A stretch of 50,923 nucleotides of DNA, taken from Clostridia bacterium. Lineage in GTDB: Bacteria; Bacillota; Clostridia; Oscillospirales; Acutalibacteraceae. Location: assembly GCA_017437005.1 (NCBI GenBank), contig JAFSBZ010000025.1, positions 1 to 50,923 on the forward strand, given 5' to 3'. The translations under genes were made by a program, and so were the position numbers. This document shows positions 12,140-19,469 of this stretch, one piece after another. The notes beneath the pieces were generated by a model. It saw nothing but the letters and a program-made list of their open reading frames with translations. It was not told the origin of the DNA and did not search any database. The first letter of the stretch is position 1, and each line of letters begins with the position of its first letter.

Positions 12140-12682
12140 ATGAAAAAGTATGTATGTTTAATTTGTGGTTATGTTCATGAAGGTGACTCAGCTCCCGATG
12201 CTTGCCCAATTTGTAAGGCGCCTGCAAGCAAGTTTGAGGAACAGTCGGGTGAAAAGACCTGGGCTGCCGAGCACGTTGTAGGTATTGCGCAGGGTGTAGA
12301 CCAAAGAATCATTGACGGTCTTCGCGAAAACTTTAACGGCGAATGCTCTGAAGTAGGTATGTACCTTGCAATGTCACGTGTTGCTCACCGTGAAGGTTAT
12401 CCGGAAATTGGTCTTTATTGGGAAAAGGCAGCACTTGAAGAGGCAGAGCACGCTGCAAAGTTTGCAGAATTACTCGGTGAGGTTCTTACCGACTCTACCA
12501 AGAAAAATCTTGAAATGCGTGTAGATGCTGAAAATGGCGCAACAAAGGGTAAATTTGAACTTGCTAAATTGGCTAAAGAGCTTGGCCTTGATGCTATTCA
12601 CGACACCGTTCACGAAATGGCTCGTGATGAAGCTCGACACGGCAAGGCATTTGAGGGCTTACTCACTCGTTATTTTAAATAA
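12140..12682 (+). CDS. rbr: Reverse rubrerythrin
   Basis: Non-heme diiron peroxidase that detoxifies hydrogen peroxide and oxygen in anaerobes. The rubredoxin domain is N-terminal (C6, C9, C22, C25), followed by a ferritin-like four-helix domain with [12 protein letters not shown] and [10 protein letters not shown], the order of clostridial reverse rubrerythrins. Start ATG 12140 has TTGGAGG upstream; 180 aa. The last about 20 codons lie in the attachment site of the mobile element and come from the element rather than the original chromosome. The displaced native codons are at 18834-18893. The protein still ends RYFK in frame, so it should be functional. Confidence 0.93.
12623..12682 (+). repeat. 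attL: left attachment copy in rbr 3' end
   Basis: This 60-nt segment aligns without gaps to 18834-18893 with 52 identities, including an exact 17-nt core (12638-12654 = 18849-18865) and an exact 15-nt block at the stop codon (12668-12682). It is the gene-restoring end of the integrated element. Crossover probably falls in the 17-nt core. Confidence 0.88.
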
Positions 12683-12684
12683 GC

Positions 12685-12720
12685 AAAAACCGCATAAATA
12701 AAGGGTTTTAGAGAATTTAA
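12685..12720. repeat. Left subterminal inverted repeat of the element
   Basis: Blocks AAAAACCGC, AAATAAAGGGTTTTA and GAATTTAA recur in the same order, inverted, at 18781-18824. They probably bind the integrase or an accessory factor. Confidence 0.65.
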
Positions 12721-12724
12721 GGCA

Positions 12725-12757
12725 ACAGGCACGGATTTTGTTCCGTGTCTGTTTTTC
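12725..12757 (+). terminator. Terminator after rbr (element copy)
   Basis: Stem ACAGGCACGGA (12725-12735) with TCCGTGTCTGT (12742-12752), one G-U pair, followed by TTTTC. The element supplies this terminator for the host rubrerythrin mRNA. Confidence 0.75.
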
Positions 12758-12764
12758 TATATTT

Positions 12765-12840
12765 GGTGGGATTTTCGGTGGGATTTCTAATTTTAGAAAG
12801 ATATTAAAAATATTCCCTGTGGGACTGTGAGTGGGATTTT
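12765..12840. repeat. GTGGGATTT direct repeats (left cluster)
   Basis: Three exact GTGGGATTT copies (within 12765-12775, 12777-12786 and 12831-12840) and one near copy at 12819. One more exact copy and a near copy lie at 18761-18783. Clustered copies at both element ends suggest arm-type integrase sites. Confidence 0.6.
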
Positions 12841-12882
12841 TAGTATATAAATAAACAAATTTTCAAAAAAATCTTAAAAGCA

Positions 12883-12911
12883 TTGCTAAATGTAGCATAT
12901 TGTGGTATACT
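12883..12911 (+). promoter_or_regulatory. Promoter of structured RNA A
   Basis: -35 TTGCTA (12883-12888), 17-nt spacer, extended -10 TGG-TATACT (12903-12911). The predicted start is about 12917-12918, exactly where the outer stem of the RNA begins. Confidence 0.7.
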
Positions 12912-12916
12912 GTTTA

Positions 12917-13111
12917 TGCTACAAACTCACATTTAAATAGAATATTGTGCCTTCACATCGTTTTGAATGGGGAATAATACTTTTGTAAAAAAGTATATTT
13001 CCTCTTTTTACCCTATTCTCCAAGCGATTGAAGGTAGTGTGAGTGTGTAGCAACATTTAGGGGAATATATTTTTTATGGTGTATTCTCTCAATGGGGATA
13101 CACCTTTTTTT
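12917..13111 (+). ncRNA. Structured RNA A (6S-like shape), on the mobile element
   Basis: About 195 nt from promoter start to terminator. The outer stem pairs 12917-12931 with 13038-13052 (14 of 15 positions). An unpaired A/U-rich 5' stretch follows (12932-12949, only about 5 nt opposite). Then come CCTTCA/TGAAGG, ATCG/CGAT, GAATGGGG/CCCTATTC, and an apical TACTTTT/AAAAGTA hairpin. A terminator ends it at 13078-13111, before the SLOG gene. A long interrupted hairpin with a central asymmetric bulge that starts at the promoter resembles 6S RNA. Alternatively it is an attenuator leader of the SLOG gene. The fold is seen; the family is not proven. Confidence 0.6.
13078..13111 (+). terminator. Terminator of RNA A / attenuator before SLOG gene
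   Basis: Stem GGTGTAT (13078-13084) with ATACACC (13098-13104), then seven T. It ends 16 nt before the likely SLOG start codon. Confidence 0.75.
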
Positions 13112-13126
13112 GTTTTGGGGATATTT

Positions 13127-13597
13127 ATGAGGAATAAAACCGTTTGTTTTACAGGGCATAGAAAAATACCTCACGCAGAACGCAATATAATTGCCGACCG
13201 ATTAAAAACAATACTTATACAACTTATAAATGACGGATATTGTTATTTCGGTTGTGGCGGTGCGTTGGGTTTTGACACCATAAGCGCACAGGCAGTTTTA
13301 GACCTAAAAAGCCAATATCCACAAATCAAACTTATACTTGTTTTGCCGTGCTTTGCACAAACAAAAGGGTGGAACGCTGACGACGTGCGTATGTATGAAT
13401 ATATAAAAGGACTTGCCGACAAGGTAACATATACCTCTGAAAACTACTTTAACGGTTGTATGCAGAAACGTAATCGGCATTTAGTAGACCACAGTAGCGT
13501 GTGCATATCTTACCTAACCGAAGAAAAGGGCGGAACTTTTTACACCGTCAACTATGCCCGAAAAAACGGACTAAAAATAATAAATGTAGCAATATGA
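13127..13597 (+). CDS. SLOG family (DUF1273/YpsA-like) protein
   Basis: A 156-aa Rossmann-like protein related to the SLOG/DUF1273 group, thought to bind nucleotide-type ligands. Visible signs are TVCFTGHRKI near the N-terminus, the glycine-rich FGCGGALGFD near residue 40 and LILVLPCFAQTKGW near 76. ATG 13127 is preferred (GGGG 7 nt upstream, family-like N-terminus). An in-frame ATG at 13076 with its own AGGGG would add 17 residues translated through the terminator hairpin. It sits on the mobile element behind structured RNA A. Members occur on many clostridial mobile elements; a defence or signalling role is inference only. Confidence 0.8.
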   Translation: MRNKTVCFTGHRKIPHAERNIIADRLKTILIQLINDGYCYFGCGGALGFDTISAQAVLDLKSQYPQIKLILVLPCFAQTKGWNADDVRMYEYIKGLADKVTYTSENYFNGCMQKRNRHLVDHSSVCISYLTEEKGGTFYTVNYARKNGLKIINVAI

Positions 13598-13664
13598 ACA
13601 CTTACACCTTGTAATCATTATATATTTATGATAAAATAATTTTAAAAATAGGGGGAATTTGAAA

Positions 13665-14396
13665 ATGGCAAAAATACCTTGTGCCGTTTGTGGAAAACAA
13701 CTCGGTCTATTATCACCAAAGGCAAAAATATCGGACGGTGCTATATGTGCGGTGTGCTTACAAAGTGCAGGTATATCCTCGTTAAGCAATGCTACATCAT
13801 ACAACCAACAAACAATTAAAGAATATATACTCACTCGTCAGGCATTGGTTAAGAGTTACAATGCAACTAAGACATATGGTGGTTATATAGAAATTGATGA
13901 GGACAACAAGTTATTCAAATTATCAGGTGATTTATTTGAATTTAGCAACTTGTTAAGTTTTGAATTGTTAGAAGACGGCACAACAGTAACTAAAGGTGGT
14001 TTAGGCAGAGCTGTTGCTGGTGGTCTGTTATTTGGTGGAGTTGGTGCAATCGTCGGCGGTGTTACTGGCAGTAAAAAAGCAAAAAATATTTGTAATTCAA
14101 TGAAACTAAGAGTGTCGCTAAAAAATGCGCATACTGATGTTGTATACATAACCTTAATTTCAAGCGAAACAAAAACAAACGGATTTATGTATAAAATGGC
14201 ACAAGATAGTGCGCAAAAGGTTATTACCGCATTAGAATTTATAAATGACATTAACCAATCAACAGCACATTATCAAACCACGCCGACACAACAATCATCT
14301 GCAGACGAAATCGTAAAATACAAAGCGTTACTCGATCAAGGCATTATTACGCAAGAAGAATTTGAGGCTAAAAAGAAACAACTATTAGGTCTATAA
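13665..14396 (+). CDS. Zinc-ribbon, glycine-zipper, SHOCT-domain protein
   Basis: A 243-aa cargo protein of unknown function. The N-terminus has two CxxC pairs (C6/C9 and C27/C30 region), likely a zinc ribbon. A PH-like beta region around 65-190 is interrupted by a glycine-zipper stretch (GGLGRAVAGG, GGVGAIVGGVTGS) that could insert in a membrane or pack helices. A linker then leads to a C-terminal SHOCT motif (YKALLDQGIITQEEFEAKK) at about 213-243, often an oligomerisation tag. ATG 13665 has GGGGG 9 nt upstream. It follows the SLOG gene on the same strand with about 65 nt between, so the two may work together. Confidence 0.75.
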   Translation: MAKIPCAVCGKQLGLLSPKAKISDGAICAVCLQSAGISSLSNATSYNQQTIKEYILTRQALVKSYNATKTYGGYIEIDEDNKLFKLSGDLFEFSNLLSFELLEDGTTVTKGGLGRAVAGGLLFGGVGAIVGGVTGSKKAKNICNSMKLRVSLKNAHTDVVYITLISSETKTNGFMYKMAQDSAQKVITALEFINDINQSTAHYQTTPTQQSSADEIVKYKALLDQGIITQEEFEAKKKQLLGL

Positions 14397-14410
14397 TACA
14401 AAACATATTT

Positions 14411-14451
14411 ATAAGGACTATGACACAAAAAGTCATAGCCCTTATTTTTTT
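14411..14451 (+). terminator. Terminator after SHOCT gene
   Basis: Stem ATAAGGACTATGAC (14411-14424) with GTCATAGCCCTTAT (14432-14445), one A/C mismatch, followed by a T run. Confidence 0.85.
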
Positions 14452-14550
14452 GCAATTTTTTCAAAATCAACAGGCTTTTTGCCCCTATCGGTAGTGGTGA
14501 TTTCCCATATAATGTTTTTACAATTTAATATTATTCTATACTGATTTATG

Positions 14551-14596
14551 CCTTTTGCCTACAGAACGCCGTTCTGTTTGCCGAGCTTGTAAAAGG
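14551..14596. other. Nested hairpin upstream of Rep (candidate origin)
   Basis: A perfect ACAGAAC-GCC-GTTCTGT hairpin (14561-14577) is enclosed by CCTTTT (14551-14556) and AAAAGG (14591-14596). It lies about 40 nt before the HUH replication gene, the sort of place where rolling-circle initiators find their nick site. No nick sequence was verified. Confidence 0.4.
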
Positions 14597-14633
14597 TATT
14601 AACTCAACGACCACACAGCAGAAAGGAAGCATT

Positions 14634-15437
14634 ATGCAAAGAATATACCGAGAACGAAAATATATCTGTGGGGACTACATAGAGGTAGCAATTTACCCTG
14701 TTTACACCCAAACGAGAGGGCGAAGCAAACGCAAGAAGCCGACAAGTGAGGTGCAACAGCGACTTAATCGCCGACACGCCACCGACCGTCTGCGTAGGCT
14801 TCTGCATACGAATTTTACCCCGAAAGACCTTTTTGTAACCCTAACCTTTGACGAGGACAGCCTACCCGAAACGGTTGCCGACTGTCAACGGGCGGTGCAG
14901 AACTACCTGCGCCGAGTAAAGCGCAAGTATGCAAAGGCAGGGATTGAGCCTAAATACATATATATCCTTGAATATGGCGAGAAACACCAACGCCTACACG
15001 CTCACCTTGTAATCAGCGACGGCTTGAGCAGGGACGAGCTTTCGGCTCTTTGGGGACAGGGGACTGTTTCAGCCGACCGTCTGCGCTTTGAAGCTGACGG
15101 CTTGACGGCTCTTGCGGTATACCTAACAAAAGGCAAGGACGACGAGGACGACCGCCTCACTTTCAAGCGGTGGTGTGGTAGCCGTAGCCTTGAACAGCCG
15201 ACGATCACCGAGCGCGACGGTCGTATCTCGCACAAGAAAATGATTGATTTCTGCGAAAGGGACAGCGACAGCGCGATATATCTTGAAACGCATTACGACG
15301 GATTTGAAACGGTCGAAAATAGCCTTGATTACTGCGAGGACACCTACGGCGGTCTATACCTGACGGCTCTTTTACGGCGTATGCCGACAAAAAAAGACCT
15401 GCCGTTTTCGGCAAGTCCTAATTGGTTAGATTTCTAA
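14634..15437 (+). CDS. Rolling-circle replication initiator-like HUH endonuclease
   Basis: A 267-aa HUH endonuclease. Motif 1 is FVTLTFDED at about 67-75, the metal-binding HUH motif is HAH at 122-124 (QRLHAHLVIS), and the likely catalytic tyrosine is Y163 in AVYLTKGK. The N-terminus is strongly basic. Such proteins nick and join one strand to start rolling-circle replication; here it would let the excised circle replicate. Base composition is more GC-rich than the host genes, consistent with transfer. It converges with the coiled-coil gene, the two stops overlapping by 12 nt. Start ATG 14634 follows AGAAAGGAAGC. Confidence 0.82.
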   Translation: MQRIYRERKYICGDYIEVAIYPVYTQTRGRSKRKKPTSEVQQRLNRRHATDRLRRLLHTNFTPKDLFVTLTFDEDSLPETVADCQRAVQNYLRRVKRKYAKAGIEPKYIYILEYGEKHQRLHAHLVISDGLSRDELSALWGQGTVSADRLRFEADGLTALAVYLTKGKDDEDDRLTFKRWCGSRSLEQPTITERDGRISHKKMIDFCERDSDSAIYLETHYDGFETVENSLDYCEDTYGGLYLTALLRRMPTKKDLPFSASPNWLDF

Positions 15438-15926
15438 ATCGTAAGTTTGTTCCTCATAGTCAATATAAGGCTCTGCGCCTTGCGTATAGATTTCCGCGAT
15501 TTCTCTGTCGCGTTCCGTAACTTTCGCCTGTAAAAGCATATTTTCAGTTTTCAGGCGTTTAATTTCCGCCTCTGCCTCAATACAGCGTTTATAAATTGCG
15601 GTTTGCGAGGTTTCGCGCTTAAGCTGTGCGCCGAGTGTTTGCAATTTTTCATAATTTTGCTTTACCCTTGCAGGACAGCTAACAGCTTCAACCAAGTCGT
15701 TAAGCTCGGTTTCGTAAACAGTTACCTCTGCAAACTCAACCCTTACGCCGTTTACCCTTTTATAGCGTACCTTACGGCGCAAGATTGTCGGCGTAAGGTC
15801 TTTTGAAAAGGCTTCGCGCATGGCTTCCTCTATGCTTAACTCTGCTTTTACAGTTTCAAGCCTTGCTTCCGTACTTTCAATGCTTTCGTTTAGGTCAATA
15901 ACTCTATTTAAGTCTAAATTTTCCAT
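15426..15926 (-). CDS. Coiled-coil protein of the mobile element
   Basis: A 166-aa charged protein, not recognised. Helical coiled-coil segments occupy about 5-45 and 95-150 (AEAEIKRLKTENMLLQAKV), and a short middle part contains RRKVRYKRVNGVRVEF. It lies 13 nt downstream of the MobV relaxase on the same strand, so it is probably co-transcribed and may be a relaxosome accessory; this is inference from position. AGAGG lies 7 nt before ATG 15926; an ATG two codons earlier is closer to that site. Confidence 0.6.
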   Translation of the reverse strand: MENLDLNRVIDLNESIESTEARLETVKAELSIEEAMREAFSKDLTPTILRRKVRYKRVNGVRVEFAEVTVYETELNDLVEAVSCPARVKQNYEKLQTLGAQLKRETSQTAIYKRCIEAEAEIKRLKTENMLLQAKVTERDREIAEIYTQGAEPYIDYEEQTYDLEI

Positions 15927-15939
15927 AATCATACCTCTT

Positions 15940-17232
15940 TTATCGGGTGCGGTCGGAGTGTTCGGCTTCCTGACGTTCCCTGAATTTCTCTTTTATAAAA
16001 TTGCAAAATCTCTGCCATACCCCGATACGCCTCATAAATGCCTCTTGTTCGTGTAGGTCTTGGTAGGCTCGATCGAGGTTGTCGGTAAGCTGTTTTGCAA
16101 TCGCTTCTTTCTCTCTTGCTCGTCTTTCGGCTGTTTCAGCTCTTTCGGTTAGGTCGGACACAATTTTGTCCCTGCTGACCTCTTGCCAAAGCTGTTTGCC
16201 GTAGCGCTGCAGTTTGTCAAAAGCCGTTTTTATGCCGATTGTGAGCTTCGCACGTTCCTTCAGCCAATCAAAATCCGTTTGCTTAATTTTGACCTTTTTA
16301 GGCTCGACAACCTGACCCCTGTGGGTGCGCTCGGGCACGGCTTCGGCTTCGATGTCGATTTCAACCTCGTCAAAACTTGCCTGAATTGTCTTTGTAATGT
16401 TGTTTTGGTCTCGCAGGGTGTTGCGCTCGGCTGTCAGCTCGGCAACCGATTTTTGTAGTTGTTCGCACTTATACTCTAAAATGTCCCTATGCTTTTGGGA
16501 CGGATTTTTGACCTCGCGATCTATCTCAATATTGCCGTTTTTCTCGCAAAGGTCGTAAAACGTGCTTCTCAACATTTCGGAAAAGGTCATTAAGGGGTTG
16601 TTGTATTTGCCCTCTTTTTTGCTTGTGTCAGGGCGGTCAATACCCATTTGCGCGAACGCTCGAGCCTGATTCACAATAGTAAACCCATGCTTATCCACGG
16701 ATGACAGAACATAACGAGCGTGGATATGTTCTGACCCTGCAGATTCGTCGTTGTGTAGAGATATATCAAGAAAGCGTATGTTTTCACCGTATTTCTGCCT
16801 CAACTGTTCTATAAGCTCGAATGTTGAAGCAACCATAATTTGCTTTCGTTCTTCGGGGGACATTTCCGTCTGCCTGTTGCCGAGTTGGAAAATTGTTTCC
16901 ATAGGGCAAGTCTTGGGGTGCTGATAAACCTCTTTTACGGTTTTACAGCGTTCGGGGTGTCCGTCTTTTATATAGCGTTCGTTTTTGGCTGTTTGACCGT
17001 CGCCGAACAAAATCTCATACTGCGATAGCTCAAATTCCTTTGCATCAAAACTGTCGCATTTCTCGACGTTGCCGTTTGCATAAATTTTGAAATTGACATT
17101 AAGCGCCGTTCGGTCGTGGTCTATGTGTCCCTCGAGATTTCGGGTTTCTGCCCTTGTGTTGTGGTTTGGGTTGAAGACGCGTCCTGCTGAATTTGTCCGA
17201 CCGTTTCTAACTGTGGCTTTCATTTTTGCCAT
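15940..17232 (-). CDS. MobV-type relaxase (Pre/Mob plasmid recombination enzyme)
   Basis: DNA relaxase that nicks oriT to start conjugative mobilization. The N-terminal relaxase domain has NHNTRAETRN (about 23-32) and HIDHDRTALN, matching the first MobV motifs. The metal-binding motif is HNDE...HIH at 160-171 (HxDE..HxH). The C-terminal half is a long coiled coil (about 260-420), typical of the family. ATG 17232 is chosen because AGGCGGTG lies just upstream; the frame is open further but with unrelated residues. 430 aa is normal. A palindrome resembling an oriT lies 66 nt upstream. Confidence 0.9.
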   Translation of the reverse strand: MAKMKATVRNGRTNSAGRVFNPNHNTRAETRNLEGHIDHDRTALNVNFKIYANGNVEKCDSFDAKEFELSQYEILFGDGQTAKNERYIKDGHPERCKTVKEVYQHPKTCPMETIFQLGNRQTEMSPEERKQIMVASTFELIEQLRQKYGENIRFLDISLHNDESAGSEHIHARYVLSSVDKHGFTIVNQARAFAQMGIDRPDTSKKEGKYNNPLMTFSEMLRSTFYDLCEKNGNIEIDREVKNPSQKHRDILEYKCEQLQKSVAELTAERNTLRDQNNITKTIQASFDEVEIDIEAEAVPERTHRGQVVEPKKVKIKQTDFDWLKERAKLTIGIKTAFDKLQRYGKQLWQEVSRDKIVSDLTERAETAERRAREKEAIAKQLTDNLDRAYQDLHEQEAFMRRIGVWQRFCNFIKEKFRERQEAEHSDRTR

Positions 17233-17273
17233 AATAATCACCGCCTTTACTTCAGTATAGAAGTTTAAAAAAG

Positions 17274-17340
17274 CGGTTCGGCAGATAGTACTCAGTATGA
17301 TATGCCGAACGGCATATCTACTTCGCACTAACGGGATTTC
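17274..17340. other. Candidate oriT upstream of MobV
   Basis: A perfect palindrome GATATGCCG-AA-CGGCATATC (17299-17318) overlaps a second inverted pair GTTCGGCA/TGCCGAAC (about 17275-17310). On the minus strand TAGTGCG lies next to it, resembling the TAGTGNG nick-site core of MobV plasmids such as pMV158. The position directly before the relaxase gene supports oriT. Confidence 0.55.
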
Positions 17341-17373
17341 ACCCCTGCCGTGAGCTTCCCCCGAAAAAACGCT

Positions 17374-17404
17374 AAAAAAACACCCTACAAAAAGTAGGGC
17401 GTTT
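17374..17404 (-). terminator. Terminator of the integrase gene
   Basis: Stem AAACACCCTAC (17378-17388) with GTAGGGCGTTT (17394-17404), one G-U pair, followed by a U run when read on the minus strand; 10 nt past the integrase stop. Confidence 0.8.
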
Positions 17405-17413
17405 CAGACTAAT

Positions 17414-18721
17414 TTATTCAACAGGAAATAATTCGTCAAGCGTTTTTAGAGTACGCTCGTATAAGGTTTCATTTGAGGTATCAACATAATATTTCATTGT
17501 TGTATCAATTTTCTTGTGGCCGAGCATAGCCATCAATTTATACATGCTGACGTTGGCGGCGGCGCAGTTCGATGCATAGGTATGTCTTAACATGTGATAC
17601 CTAAATTCACGTTTATCTACACGAGCAATATCGTCAGGCAAACCAAACGTTTTAAATTTTGCCTTTTTTTCGGCATTTTTCTGTAATGCAGGGGTGATTT
17701 TTTTCGCCCAATACTTCATAGAATTGACCGTTAAAAGCTCACCATTCGTTTTTCGATTTACAAAATCGCTTCCTGTAATCCACTTTTTTTCAATCTCATC
17801 GTACACCTTTTCCGTATTCCGATACGCTTCGCCTAGTTCTTCCTTTTGCTTTTTCTCTAATAATCGCCTGATTGACAACTCATCATATAGAATGGTAGGC
17901 ATAATAACCTCGCGAACACCTTTTAGGGTTTTTACAGCGGTAAGTCGCAAAATTCCGTCAACATAATTTAGTTGCCGTCTAACGTGTATCGTTTTTGTGT
18001 TCCAATCTATATCTTGCCACCGCAGACCGAAACACTCACTAATTCTCAATCCTGCATACAAACCTAAACAAAAGGCAATATATAGGTTTCTGTCGCCGCT
18101 TTCAAAGAAACTGCGAATTATTTCGATTTCGTCGGAAGTATAGGAGTCAACGTGTTCATCCTCTTTGTTATCTTCTTGACGTTTTTTCGGCATAGTCAAT
18201 CGCTTGTTTGGGTTAATAAACGTTTCTTCGTACCAATCGCTATTGACTACTTGCATTTTGTCGGCGCGACCGAAAAGCAAATAGAGAAATTTCAAAAAAC
18301 CCTCAGTATATGCGTATGAGTGATTTTCGTACACATTTAGTAAAAAAGTGTCTAAATCATCTTGAGTAATGGAATTTATATCTCTATCGCCAAATGCCAC
18401 TTTCACATAATTGCGCCACATACTATCCTGTTTGCGTAGTGTAGCAGGGGCTTTTTCCTTTGCGGTGGTTTTTAGATAATGCTCATAAACGTCGGTTAGG
18501 GTAACCTTTTTGGGTTTACTTGCGCTTTCTTCTGGATTTGCTCTTATTCTTGTTTCGTGTTCCTTTTTAGCCTCAAAAGCCTGTCTTGCAGTTAAGAACG
18601 GATTGCCTCGACTATCCTTTTTAATGCGTGTATCTTTTACGCTACCGTCGGGCAACTTAATTTTAATTCTATAAGTCCACGAGCCGTCTGTATTTTGGGT
18701 AACACCTGTATATTTTGCCAT
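17414..18721 (-). CDS. int: Tyrosine-type site-specific integrase
   Basis: Catalyses integration and excision of the element. The N-terminal arm-binding domain (about 1-60) has an AP2-like DGSWTYRIKIKLPDGS pattern. A SAM-like core-binding domain covers about 73-170 and the catalytic domain about 200-430. The catalytic set is visible: R in AGLRISE (about 227), HMLRH (about 378), LGH (about 398) and nucleophile Y in KYYVD (about 409). 435 aa fits integrases of small clostridial elements. It sits next to the right att copy and reads inward. Its target here is the 3' end of rbr rather than a tRNA. Confidence 0.93.
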   Translation of the reverse strand: MAKYTGVTQNTDGSWTYRIKIKLPDGSVKDTRIKKDSRGNPFLTARQAFEAKKEHETRIRANPEESASKPKKVTLTDVYEHYLKTTAKEKAPATLRKQDSMWRNYVKVAFGDRDINSITQDDLDTFLLNVYENHSYAYTEGFLKFLYLLFGRADKMQVVNSDWYEETFINPNKRLTMPKKRQEDNKEDEHVDSYTSDEIEIIRSFFESGDRNLYIAFCLGLYAGLRISECFGLRWQDIDWNTKTIHVRRQLNYVDGILRLTAVKTLKGVREVIMPTILYDELSIRRLLEKKQKEELGEAYRNTEKVYDEIEKKWITGSDFVNRKTNGELLTVNSMKYWAKKITPALQKNAEKKAKFKTFGLPDDIARVDKREFRYHMLRHTYASNCAAANVSMYKLMAMLGHKKIDTTMKYYVDTSNETLYERTLKTLDELFPVE

Positions 18722-18760
18722 AATAATCCCTCTTTTCTGCCTTAATTATAACTCAAGGAT

Positions 18761-18783
18761 GGTGGGATTTCAAGTGGTATTTT
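18761..18783. repeat. GTGGGATTT repeats (right end)
   Basis: One exact GGTGGGATTT (18761-18770) and one near copy AGTGGTATTTTT (18773-18784), matching the cluster at 12765-12840. Confidence 0.55.
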
Positions 18784-18824
18784 TAAATTCAAAATCTTAA
18801 ACCCTTTTATTTCAAGCGGTTTTT
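18781..18824. repeat. Right subterminal inverted repeat of the element
   Basis: Inverted counterpart of 12685-12720, with TTAAATTC, TAAACCCTTTTATTT and GCGGTTTTT. It lies about 10 nt inside the right att copy. Confidence 0.65.
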
Positions 18825-18833
18825 ATATGGTTT

Positions 18834-18893
18834 CGTGACGAAGCTCGTCACGGCAAGGCATTTGAAGGACTTCTCAACCGTTATTTTAAATAA
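18834..18893 (+). pseudogene. attR: displaced native 3' end of rbr
   Basis: Encodes, in frame, the last 19 codons and stop of rubrerythrin ([19 protein letters not shown]) without the rest of the gene. Against 12623-12682 it has 8 differences in 60 nt. Five of the six changed codons are synonymous and one changes Thr to Asn. It is followed by a good terminator, so this was the chromosomal rbr end before insertion. Confidence 0.88.
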
Positions 18894-18956: not shown

Positions 18957-19469
18957 ATGTTAGACAAAAAGGTAATTGAACTATTAAACGATCAAATAAA
19001 CAAGGAATTTTACAGTGCATATCTTTATCTTGATATAGCAAACTACTATATCGATAATGACCTCGACGGTTTTGGCAACTGGTACACCATTCAGGCGCAA
19101 GAAGAACGCGACCACGCGATGCTTTTCTTAAAATATTTACAAAGCAATGGCGTAAAGGTTGTACTTAAGGCAATAGATCAACCCGACAAGGAGTTTAAAA
19201 ATCACATTGATCCATTGCTTACGGGTGCCGAACACGAGCGTTATGTAACAAATCTTATTCACACAATATATGATGCGGCTTACAGCGTAAAGGATTTTCG
19301 CACAATGCAGTTTTTGGACTGGTTTGTAAAGGAACAGCTTGAGGAAGAAGAAAATGCTGACAAGCTTGTAAACAAATACAAATTATTTGGAGATGACCCC
19401 AAAAGTCTTTACTTGCTCGATCAAGAGCTTGCGGCTCGCATATATACAGCACCAAGTCTGACACTTTAA
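18957..19469 (+). CDS. ftnA: Ferritin (non-heme, bacterial FtnA type)
   Basis: Iron-storage ferritin of 170 aa that oxidises and stores Fe(II), limiting Fenton chemistry. Diiron ferroxidase residues are visible in KEFYSAYLYL (E17), EERDHAMLF (about E50/H53) and the later EQLEEEENA helix. GGTGAT precedes the ATG. It was probably the gene after rubrerythrin in the ancestral perR-rbr-ftn block; the mobile element now separates it by 6.2 kb. No clear promoter is visible between the orphan terminator and the start, so expression may depend on read-through or a weak local promoter. Confidence 0.93.
   Translation: MLDKKVIELLNDQINKEFYSAYLYLDIANYYIDNDLDGFGNWYTIQAQEERDHAMLFLKYLQSNGVKVVLKAIDQPDKEFKNHIDPLLTGAEHERYVTNLIHTIYDAAYSVKDFRTMQFLDWFVKEQLEEEENADKLVNKYKLFGDDPKSLYLLDQELAARIYTAPSLTL

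Follow-up and report, generated by a model that had tools for sequence, protein, structure and literature searches.

A 6.2-kb element lies between two copies of a rubrerythrin gene end

The window analysed here is a stretch of 50,923 nt from a Clostridia bacterium (assembly GCA_017437005.1, contig JAFSBZ010000025.1), and all coordinates given are positions within it. It carries a rubrerythrin gene (rbr) whose last codons occur twice, once at the end of the gene itself and again 6.2 kb further on, beside a ferritin gene (ftn), and the DNA between the two copies encodes a SLOG protein, a DUF4428/SHOCT protein, a HUH replication protein (Rep), a 168-aa protein, a MobA-like protein and a tyrosine integrase (Table 1). 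As judged from sequence, through the anatomy of the region, empty sites in relatives, a group of rbr-directed integrases and integrase-less inserts with shared right ends, 12623-18893 is very probably an integrative and probably mobilizable element using the 3' end of rbr, a dock at which small inserts without an integrase also reside.

The two copies form a 61-nt direct repeat in a repeat scan (D1; 12622-12682 and 18833-18893, identity 53/61). Over the in-frame 60 nt (12623-12682 versus 18834-18893) there are 8 mismatches, 6 of them at third codon positions, which fall in six codons; those for D, R, E, G and L change synonymously and one exchanges Thr for Asn, so that repeat scan and codon count both confirm the differences listed in a preliminary description of this DNA. 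Among the identical runs, CACGGCAAGGCATTTGA is the longest at 17 nt (12638-12654 / 18849-18865), and further ones are the 8-nt GAAGCTCG (12629-12636 / 18840-18847) and the 15-nt CGTTATTTTAAATAA. The rubrerythrin protein is kept intact, as had been stated, its frame being open over 180 aa with Pfam RUBY_RBDX and Rubrerythrin both above cut-off. The distal copy matched a profile of rbr ends at E = 5e-17, the training set of which included the window copies. Two features characteristic of an integrative and mobilizable element (IME) were found, namely an integrase of its own (PF00589, with catalytic motifs) and attachment (att) repeats at a specific site whose empty form is known.

Empty sites, a sister element and a group of integrases at rbr

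An empty rbr-ftn junction, which the preliminary description had proposed to look for in related genomes, was found in two genomes of the same genus, G032 and G009, with a gap of ~60 bp between the genes; the joined flanks of the window aligned to these at 219/261 and 203/257 bases respectively. In G201, a genome of another genus in the same family, a sister element lies at rbr, with identical nucleotides relative to the window at 456/468 positions in the SLOG gene, 743/804 in rep, 985/1287 in the mobilization gene and 855/1299 in the integrase gene, against 385/486 in the body of rbr, and with a different cargo gene between SLOG and rep. On the sequences compared, this points to recent transfer and mosaicism.

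Searching with the integrase gave matches in 3/296 relatives at E<=1e-60 and, at E<=1e-40, in 6/398 family genomes and 7/394 order genomes (the sets overlap and the own genome is counted in each, so that 13 distinct genomes were matched). In 12 of the 13 an rbr end was found within ~1.5 kb of the integrase, which bears out the suggestion that integrases of this kind would stand next to other rbr 3' ends, and these relatives at rbr belong to several families of the order. A sheep-colon Oscillospiraceae metagenome-assembled genome (MAG), found by a separate route, has two rbr-end copies adjoining its integrase, and no rbr end adjoined the two other tyrosine integrases of the window's own genome. 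These related integrases form a group that has the rbr 3' end as its common attachment site.

Integrase-less small inserts at the rbr end

Within the genus, 45 rbr loci had at least 2.5 kb of downstream sequence; in 12 of these the rbr end recurred within 2.5 kb without an integrase match (L058 with a partial second copy only), 2 had an integrase element and 31 had neither. The remaining 9 of the 54 genus loci had less than 2.5 kb downstream and were left out, two of them (L124 and L010) carrying a second copy nonetheless; loci L096 and L088 were left out of the rbr-locus map. The complete set of fetched loci, which extends beyond the genus, yielded 25 att-to-att segments, 4 with an integrase and 21 without, where integrase-less means no tblastn match to the window integrase at E<=1e-5 and distant recombinases lie outside that criterion. 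By the same measure these 21 of 25 segments have the make-up of cis-mobilizable elements (CIMEs), that is, two att copies with no integrase or transfer genes between them. They are 278-1,932 bp long, mostly below 1.5 kb, and many hold one plausible gene; the cargo consists of small membrane proteins, lipoproteins and short hydrophobic peptides, mostly without a known family, and of ten single-gene insert proteins compared with Pfam none scored above cut-off. One 66-aa insert protein had no match in 300 family genomes, a draw not known to include the positive genomes, so that this shows little.

The right ends tie a good part of these inserts to the integrase-bearing elements. Right-end profiles built only from the latter, three for type I and one for type II, were used to search 966,514 bases; besides their own sources they matched 7 type I ends (E 5e-5 to 0.015) and 5 type II ends (E 4e-7 to 0.0012), all 12 of them ending 2-19 nt before an rbr-end copy. 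Nothing else in these bases fell below E 0.1, the next matches being at E 0.15 and 0.19. Eleven of the 12 matches fall in 11 of the 21 integrase-less inserts, and the twelfth, in G037, is one-sided, with ftn instead of an rbr copy as its left neighbour. Duplicate loci L128 and L117 were left out of this search, as they were from the class tests and the covariation, tail and native-copy comparisons given below.

Tandem arrangements were also seen: one contig of G002 has three successive rbr ends, and on a contig of G023 a partial integrase gene is followed by three tandem copies. Between contigs of G023, rbr is followed by a cassette on one and an integrase by the same cassette start on another; this may reflect either polymorphism in the population or the presence of two similar cassettes within one genome, and was counted as neither. 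The inserts would accordingly be read as CIME-like cassettes moved in trans, their mobility being suggested by the shared right ends and by an open reading frame (ORF) common to inserts of G056 and G026, in which 4/201 bases are changed; the rbr bodies of these two genomes match at 406/486, and the insert recurs in the sheep-colon MAG at 323/365 aligned bases. The rbr end suggests itself, on this basis, as a landing site for swappable gene cassettes.

The strongest competing account, to which we give somewhat less than an even chance, is that the small inserts are fixed and immobile decay remnants (CIMEs) of former rbr elements, with nothing cassette-like about them. Both CIMEs and tandem accretion are established phenomena, as set out in a review of IMEs (PMC5704250). 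Copies are degenerate in L058, L010, L091 and L092, a recognised right end (by the two types of profile) is missing from 10 of the 21 inserts, and class A inserts retain the first part of the left end of an integrase element with the rest lost. Decay would not, however, readily account for one ORF being nearly identical in two species whose rbr bodies are 16% different, nor for the tandem stacks, and random decay would not give class B inserts a common spacing, 125-128 nt, between the start of the rbr copy and the beginning of each of several distinct genes (start codons chosen by hand). The reading as mobile cassettes could be carried further, to an integron-like system of cassettes in this clostridial order, in which several integrase lineages share the rbr dock and cassettes of a few hundred bases to 2 kb, lacking an integrase, circulate between species as circles and stack behind rbr, each arrival re-supplying the last codons, the stop and sometimes a terminator; this extension is put forward tentatively, as a possibility that we consider less likely than not.

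Origin of the differences between the two rbr ends

When 8 substitutions were placed at random 20,000 times, 0.02% of placements gave five or more synonymous codons with no more than one non-synonymous, and the codons changed over 25 att pairs were synonymous in 119 cases and non-synonymous in 44. By this bias, both window copies read like the ends of working rbr genes; at the site of the Thr/Asn change, relatives show free variation in their rbr tails (A, N, G, K, D, E, T, S, Y, V). Such a pattern sits poorly with the proposal that the 8 differences are drift after a plain duplication on insertion, with no foreign end brought in, since the distal copy is untranslated. Copies are nearly identical at some loci (1 difference in L061, 2 in L055, 2 in L079 and 3 in L065), and therefore plain insertion of a like-ended element does occur and later drift is possible there, but the synonymous bias and the linkage of class A tails to the class of element make drift an improbable source of the differences overall.

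This linkage was found by permutation among the 8 loci of class A, the end-class of the window, whose proximal tails are more alike than the divergence of rbr predicts (27 nt, p ~7e-4; last 9 nt, p ~3e-4). G049, G067 and G002 share an identical 33-nt tail, although between their rbr bodies only 395, 382 and 363 of 486 bases agree. The claim of the preliminary description that the element brings the rbr end of a diverged host and swaps it in is hence supported in part, by the element-linked class A tails as a group, while for this window either copy could be the foreign one, as the comparison with relatives below indicates.

Homologous recombination or gene conversion between rbr genes, in place of site-specific integration, would be a further source of the copies, and one that we regard as very improbable. 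Class B right ends and tails do look mosaic, G056 and G026 having the same ORF with a different last 60 nt before the site. Against this, conserved right ends matching those of integrase-bearing elements stand directly before the rbr copies, and relatives of the integrase are found at rbr in several families.

Position of the exchange

The point of exchange was approached by covariation between attL and attR in 21 elements (L058, L010, L091 and L092 left out; the shuffles take no account of relatedness). Agreement at third positions, observed against shuffled, was 0.76/0.46 for E, 0.76/0.39 for A, 0.71/0.28 for R, 0.95/0.72 for H and 0.67/0.45 for G of the E-A-R-H-G codons, and was reached by 0/5000 shuffles both with all 21 pairs and with the 16 pairs of differing tails. 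With all 21 pairs, agreement was weak at the K-A-F codons, which make up much of the 17-nt core, and as high in the tail as at E-A-R-H-G; with the 5 nearly identical tails removed (16 pairs), K-A-F was at chance (1461/5000) and the tail weakened (19/5000). A tyrosine recombinase requires identity within its overlap. Covariation favours a putative exchange at 12629-12643, a segment that overlaps the core only at CACGG; the preliminary description had placed the crossover inside that core, where agreement is at chance for K-A-F, and in that form the placement is not supported.

Several results weigh against an IME at the rbr end with related inserts at the same dock, or against parts of that interpretation. 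Agreement in the tail exceeded that of the shuffles even in the 16 pairs with differing tails, where 19/5000 reached it. Over 27 nt, class B tails were not element-linked (p 0.33; last 9 nt, p 0.046). Among 11 informative loci having a relative of at least 80%, the native-like copy was the distal one in 6 and the proximal one in 4, with 1 tie (sign test 0.75; L058 left out), and without the 80% filter (14 loci) the count was 7 versus 6 with 1 tie. Ten of the 21 integrase-less inserts were matched by neither right-end profile. In G650, the thirteenth genome with a related integrase, no rbr end was found near the integrase, and the adjoining gene reads as an insertion sequence transposase. The mobilization protein had no Pfam, NCBIfam or PDB-sequence match, and its fold model (predicted local distance difference test score 38.6) was unusable.

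These counts did not bear out the view of the distal copy as native in every case. The single cases G056, G067 and G049 only suggest a native distal copy, and in the window it is the proximal tail that resembles the three nearest element-free relatives slightly more (0.818 versus 0.768 for the distal tail).

Proposed mode of insertion and comparison with known systems

In the mechanism that we propose, the tyrosine integrase would recombine an rbr-like site on the element with the 3' end of the chromosomal rbr. Element sequence past the exchange point, comprising the last rbr codons, the stop and a terminator-like hairpin, would then complete the gene, and the old rbr end would remain on the far side, adjoining ftn. 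The small inserts, a good part of which have right ends like those of integrase-bearing elements, would most likely be moved in trans by such integrases and come to be stacked in tandem at the rbr end. With a terminator-like hairpin just within its left end, the element appears from its sequence to supply rbr with a terminator in addition to its last codons and stop. The element itself may pass between cells by conjugation.

The preliminary description regarded a conserved oxidative-stress gene, in place of a tRNA, as an uncommon target for a tyrosine integrase; according to PMC5704250, the 3' ends of housekeeping protein genes, such as rpsI, rplL, rpmG and guaA, are usual targets of IMEs with tyrosine integrases. 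Like those IMEs, the present element has its integrase at one end, a repeat that keeps the target open, and a replication gene and a putative mobilization gene aboard; unlike them, it targets rbr ('rubrerythrin' is absent from the main text of that review) and has a relaxase candidate that matches no recognised family. A literature search found no rubrerythrin gene as an integration site, although its coverage was without most subscription journals and it is weak evidence of absence.

In dusA islands, as described in PMC4482086, the gene end is island-derived and the repeats are imperfect; the rbr system resembles these in having one integrase family per protein gene, imperfect direct repeats and, as proposed, an island-derived gene end, and differs in that the 5' end of dusA is used there and the 3' end of rbr here. 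CIMEs (PMC5704250) and the ssrA islands of Dehalococcoides, stacked at one site and in 15/31 cases described as lacking an integration module (PMC3146451), likewise offer integrase-less, att-flanked elements in tandem at one dock. The Dehalococcoides islands, in the same account, have serine recombinases and a tmRNA gene as target, in contrast to the tyrosine integrases, the protein gene and the mostly <1.5-kb single-gene inserts found here.

The window integrase matched an integron model weakly, below cut-off. Integron cassettes and Acinetobacter dif modules are small, lack a recombinase and are bounded by sites of a tyrosine recombinase acting in trans. The small recombinase-less modules at rbr are like these in the broad outline of their layout, with no relation to IntI, attC or Xer claimed, and unlike them in that the site is the end of a protein-coding gene. 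IMEs at protein-gene ends, island-derived gene ends, CIMEs and accretion were thus known already, and what is new is the rbr dock with its small integrase-less inserts. Rubrerythrin, a conserved oxidative-stress gene, would join the dedicated integration sites, and the end of a coding gene could be used repeatedly as a dock, with selection on the protein keeping it open; were the small inserts mobile, they would form a cassette system outside integrons in common anaerobes.

Gene content and ends of the element

Table 1. Features of the rbr element and its flanks, with positions in the window.
Feature	Position	Strand	Basis
Rubrerythrin (rbr), target gene; frame ends inside attL	12140..12682	+	Pfam RUBY_RBDX, Rubrerythrin
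attL: rbr 3' end, coding copy	12623..12682	+	Direct repeat D1; rbr-end profile
Likely exchange region, E-A-R-H-G codons	12629..12643	+	Inferred from attL/attR covariation
Left-end motif AAAAACCGCATAAATAAAGGGTTTT	12685..12709	+	Common to class A left ends; inverted relative at right end
Terminator-like hairpin just inside left end	12724..12753	+	Pattern scan; G201 sister element has a similar hairpin
Two pairs of GTGGGATTT-type repeats, candidate integrase arm sites	12765..12841	+	Repeat family D2; kept in G201
Candidate structured RNA	12915..13060	+	z = -7.9; promoter-like site 12883-12911, terminator-like hairpin 13078-13104 (pattern scan)
YpsA-type SLOG protein	13127..13597	+	PF06908, E 7e-19
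DUF4428/SHOCT protein, cargo	13665..14396	+	PF14471, PF09851; other gene in its place in G201
HUH rolling-circle replication protein, phage-type	14634..15437	+	PF23343; phrog_3584 E 1e-66
168-aa protein, no family match	15426..15932	-	461/507 nt identical in G201
MobA-like mobilization protein, probable relaxase	15940..17232	-	28-34% identity to 4 plasmid records, one annotated MobA
Tyrosine integrase	17414..18721	-	PF00589 E 3e-18; Arg, His-x-x-Arg, His, Tyr motifs present
Right-end repeat pair GGTGGGATTTCAAGTGGTATTTTT	18760..18784	+	Part of type I right-end profile
Inverted relative of left-end motif	18799..18824	+	Read from sequence and class A left ends
attR: displaced rbr 3' end	18834..18893	+	Direct repeat D1; rbr-end profile
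Ferritin (ftn), right chromosomal neighbour	18957..19469	+	PF00210; directly after rbr in G032, G009

Both ends of the element carry related inverted AAAAACCGC...AAAGGGTTTT motifs together with paired GTGGGATTT-type repeats. The reading of catalytic motifs covered 13/14 integrases, G499 being left out. The candidate RNA folds into a long hairpin (-51.4 kcal/mol) and had no Rfam match at E<=1; its sole full-length relative among 300 family genomes is identical in sequence, and 206 nt of the region are identical in the sister element of another genus.

A phage or satellite phage was considered and dropped on the absence of any structural or packaging match among the six element proteins in PHROGs, where the matches were to integrase, replication, a GTP-binding/DprA-like family and families of unknown function. 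No relative of the integrase and Rep was found in viral contigs by exact-peptide seeding, which reaches close relatives only, and integrases from phage records were below 60% identity to that of the window, the ten listed being at 24-26%.

A module with a hairpin and a promoter-like sequence (TTGAAAA, then GATGTGCTATCATAACGGTAGCACATC) was noted at L037, L050, L055, L060, L116, L119, L039, L047 and L049. It lies before many insert genes and, in other genomes, also behind ftn (G004, G037) or rubredoxin (G016, G063), and the promoter-like class B left end was for this reason rejected as a diagnostic element end. Among loci negative with the right-end profiles, paired GTG repeats were noted by eye in five segments of four loci (L074, L078, L086 twice; L077 and L079 spelled differently). 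The inserts of L010, L061 and L074 encode short hydrophobic peptides of ~20-30 aa, which by eye we take to resemble holin-like toxins. The lipoprotein of one G023 insert (L116) has relatives, 47-52% identical, downstream of rbr in G063 (L049) and G064 (L060), with no second rbr copy in view there, and inserts may on this evidence capture genes neighbouring rbr. In L080, L084, L087 and L089 rubrerythrin runs on at its C-terminus (YFGAELLADG... or similar) past the usual YFK/YFG end, and the attachment segment is therefore not the end of the gene in these loci. Lastly, the left-end motif ACCGCATAAATAAAGGGTTTT (window 12685-12709; L144-L164) is also found at sites other than rbr in many of the genus's genomes and may mark the ends of other integrative elements; of 13 such non-rbr loci scanned, 3 had tRNA genes within the fetched stretch.

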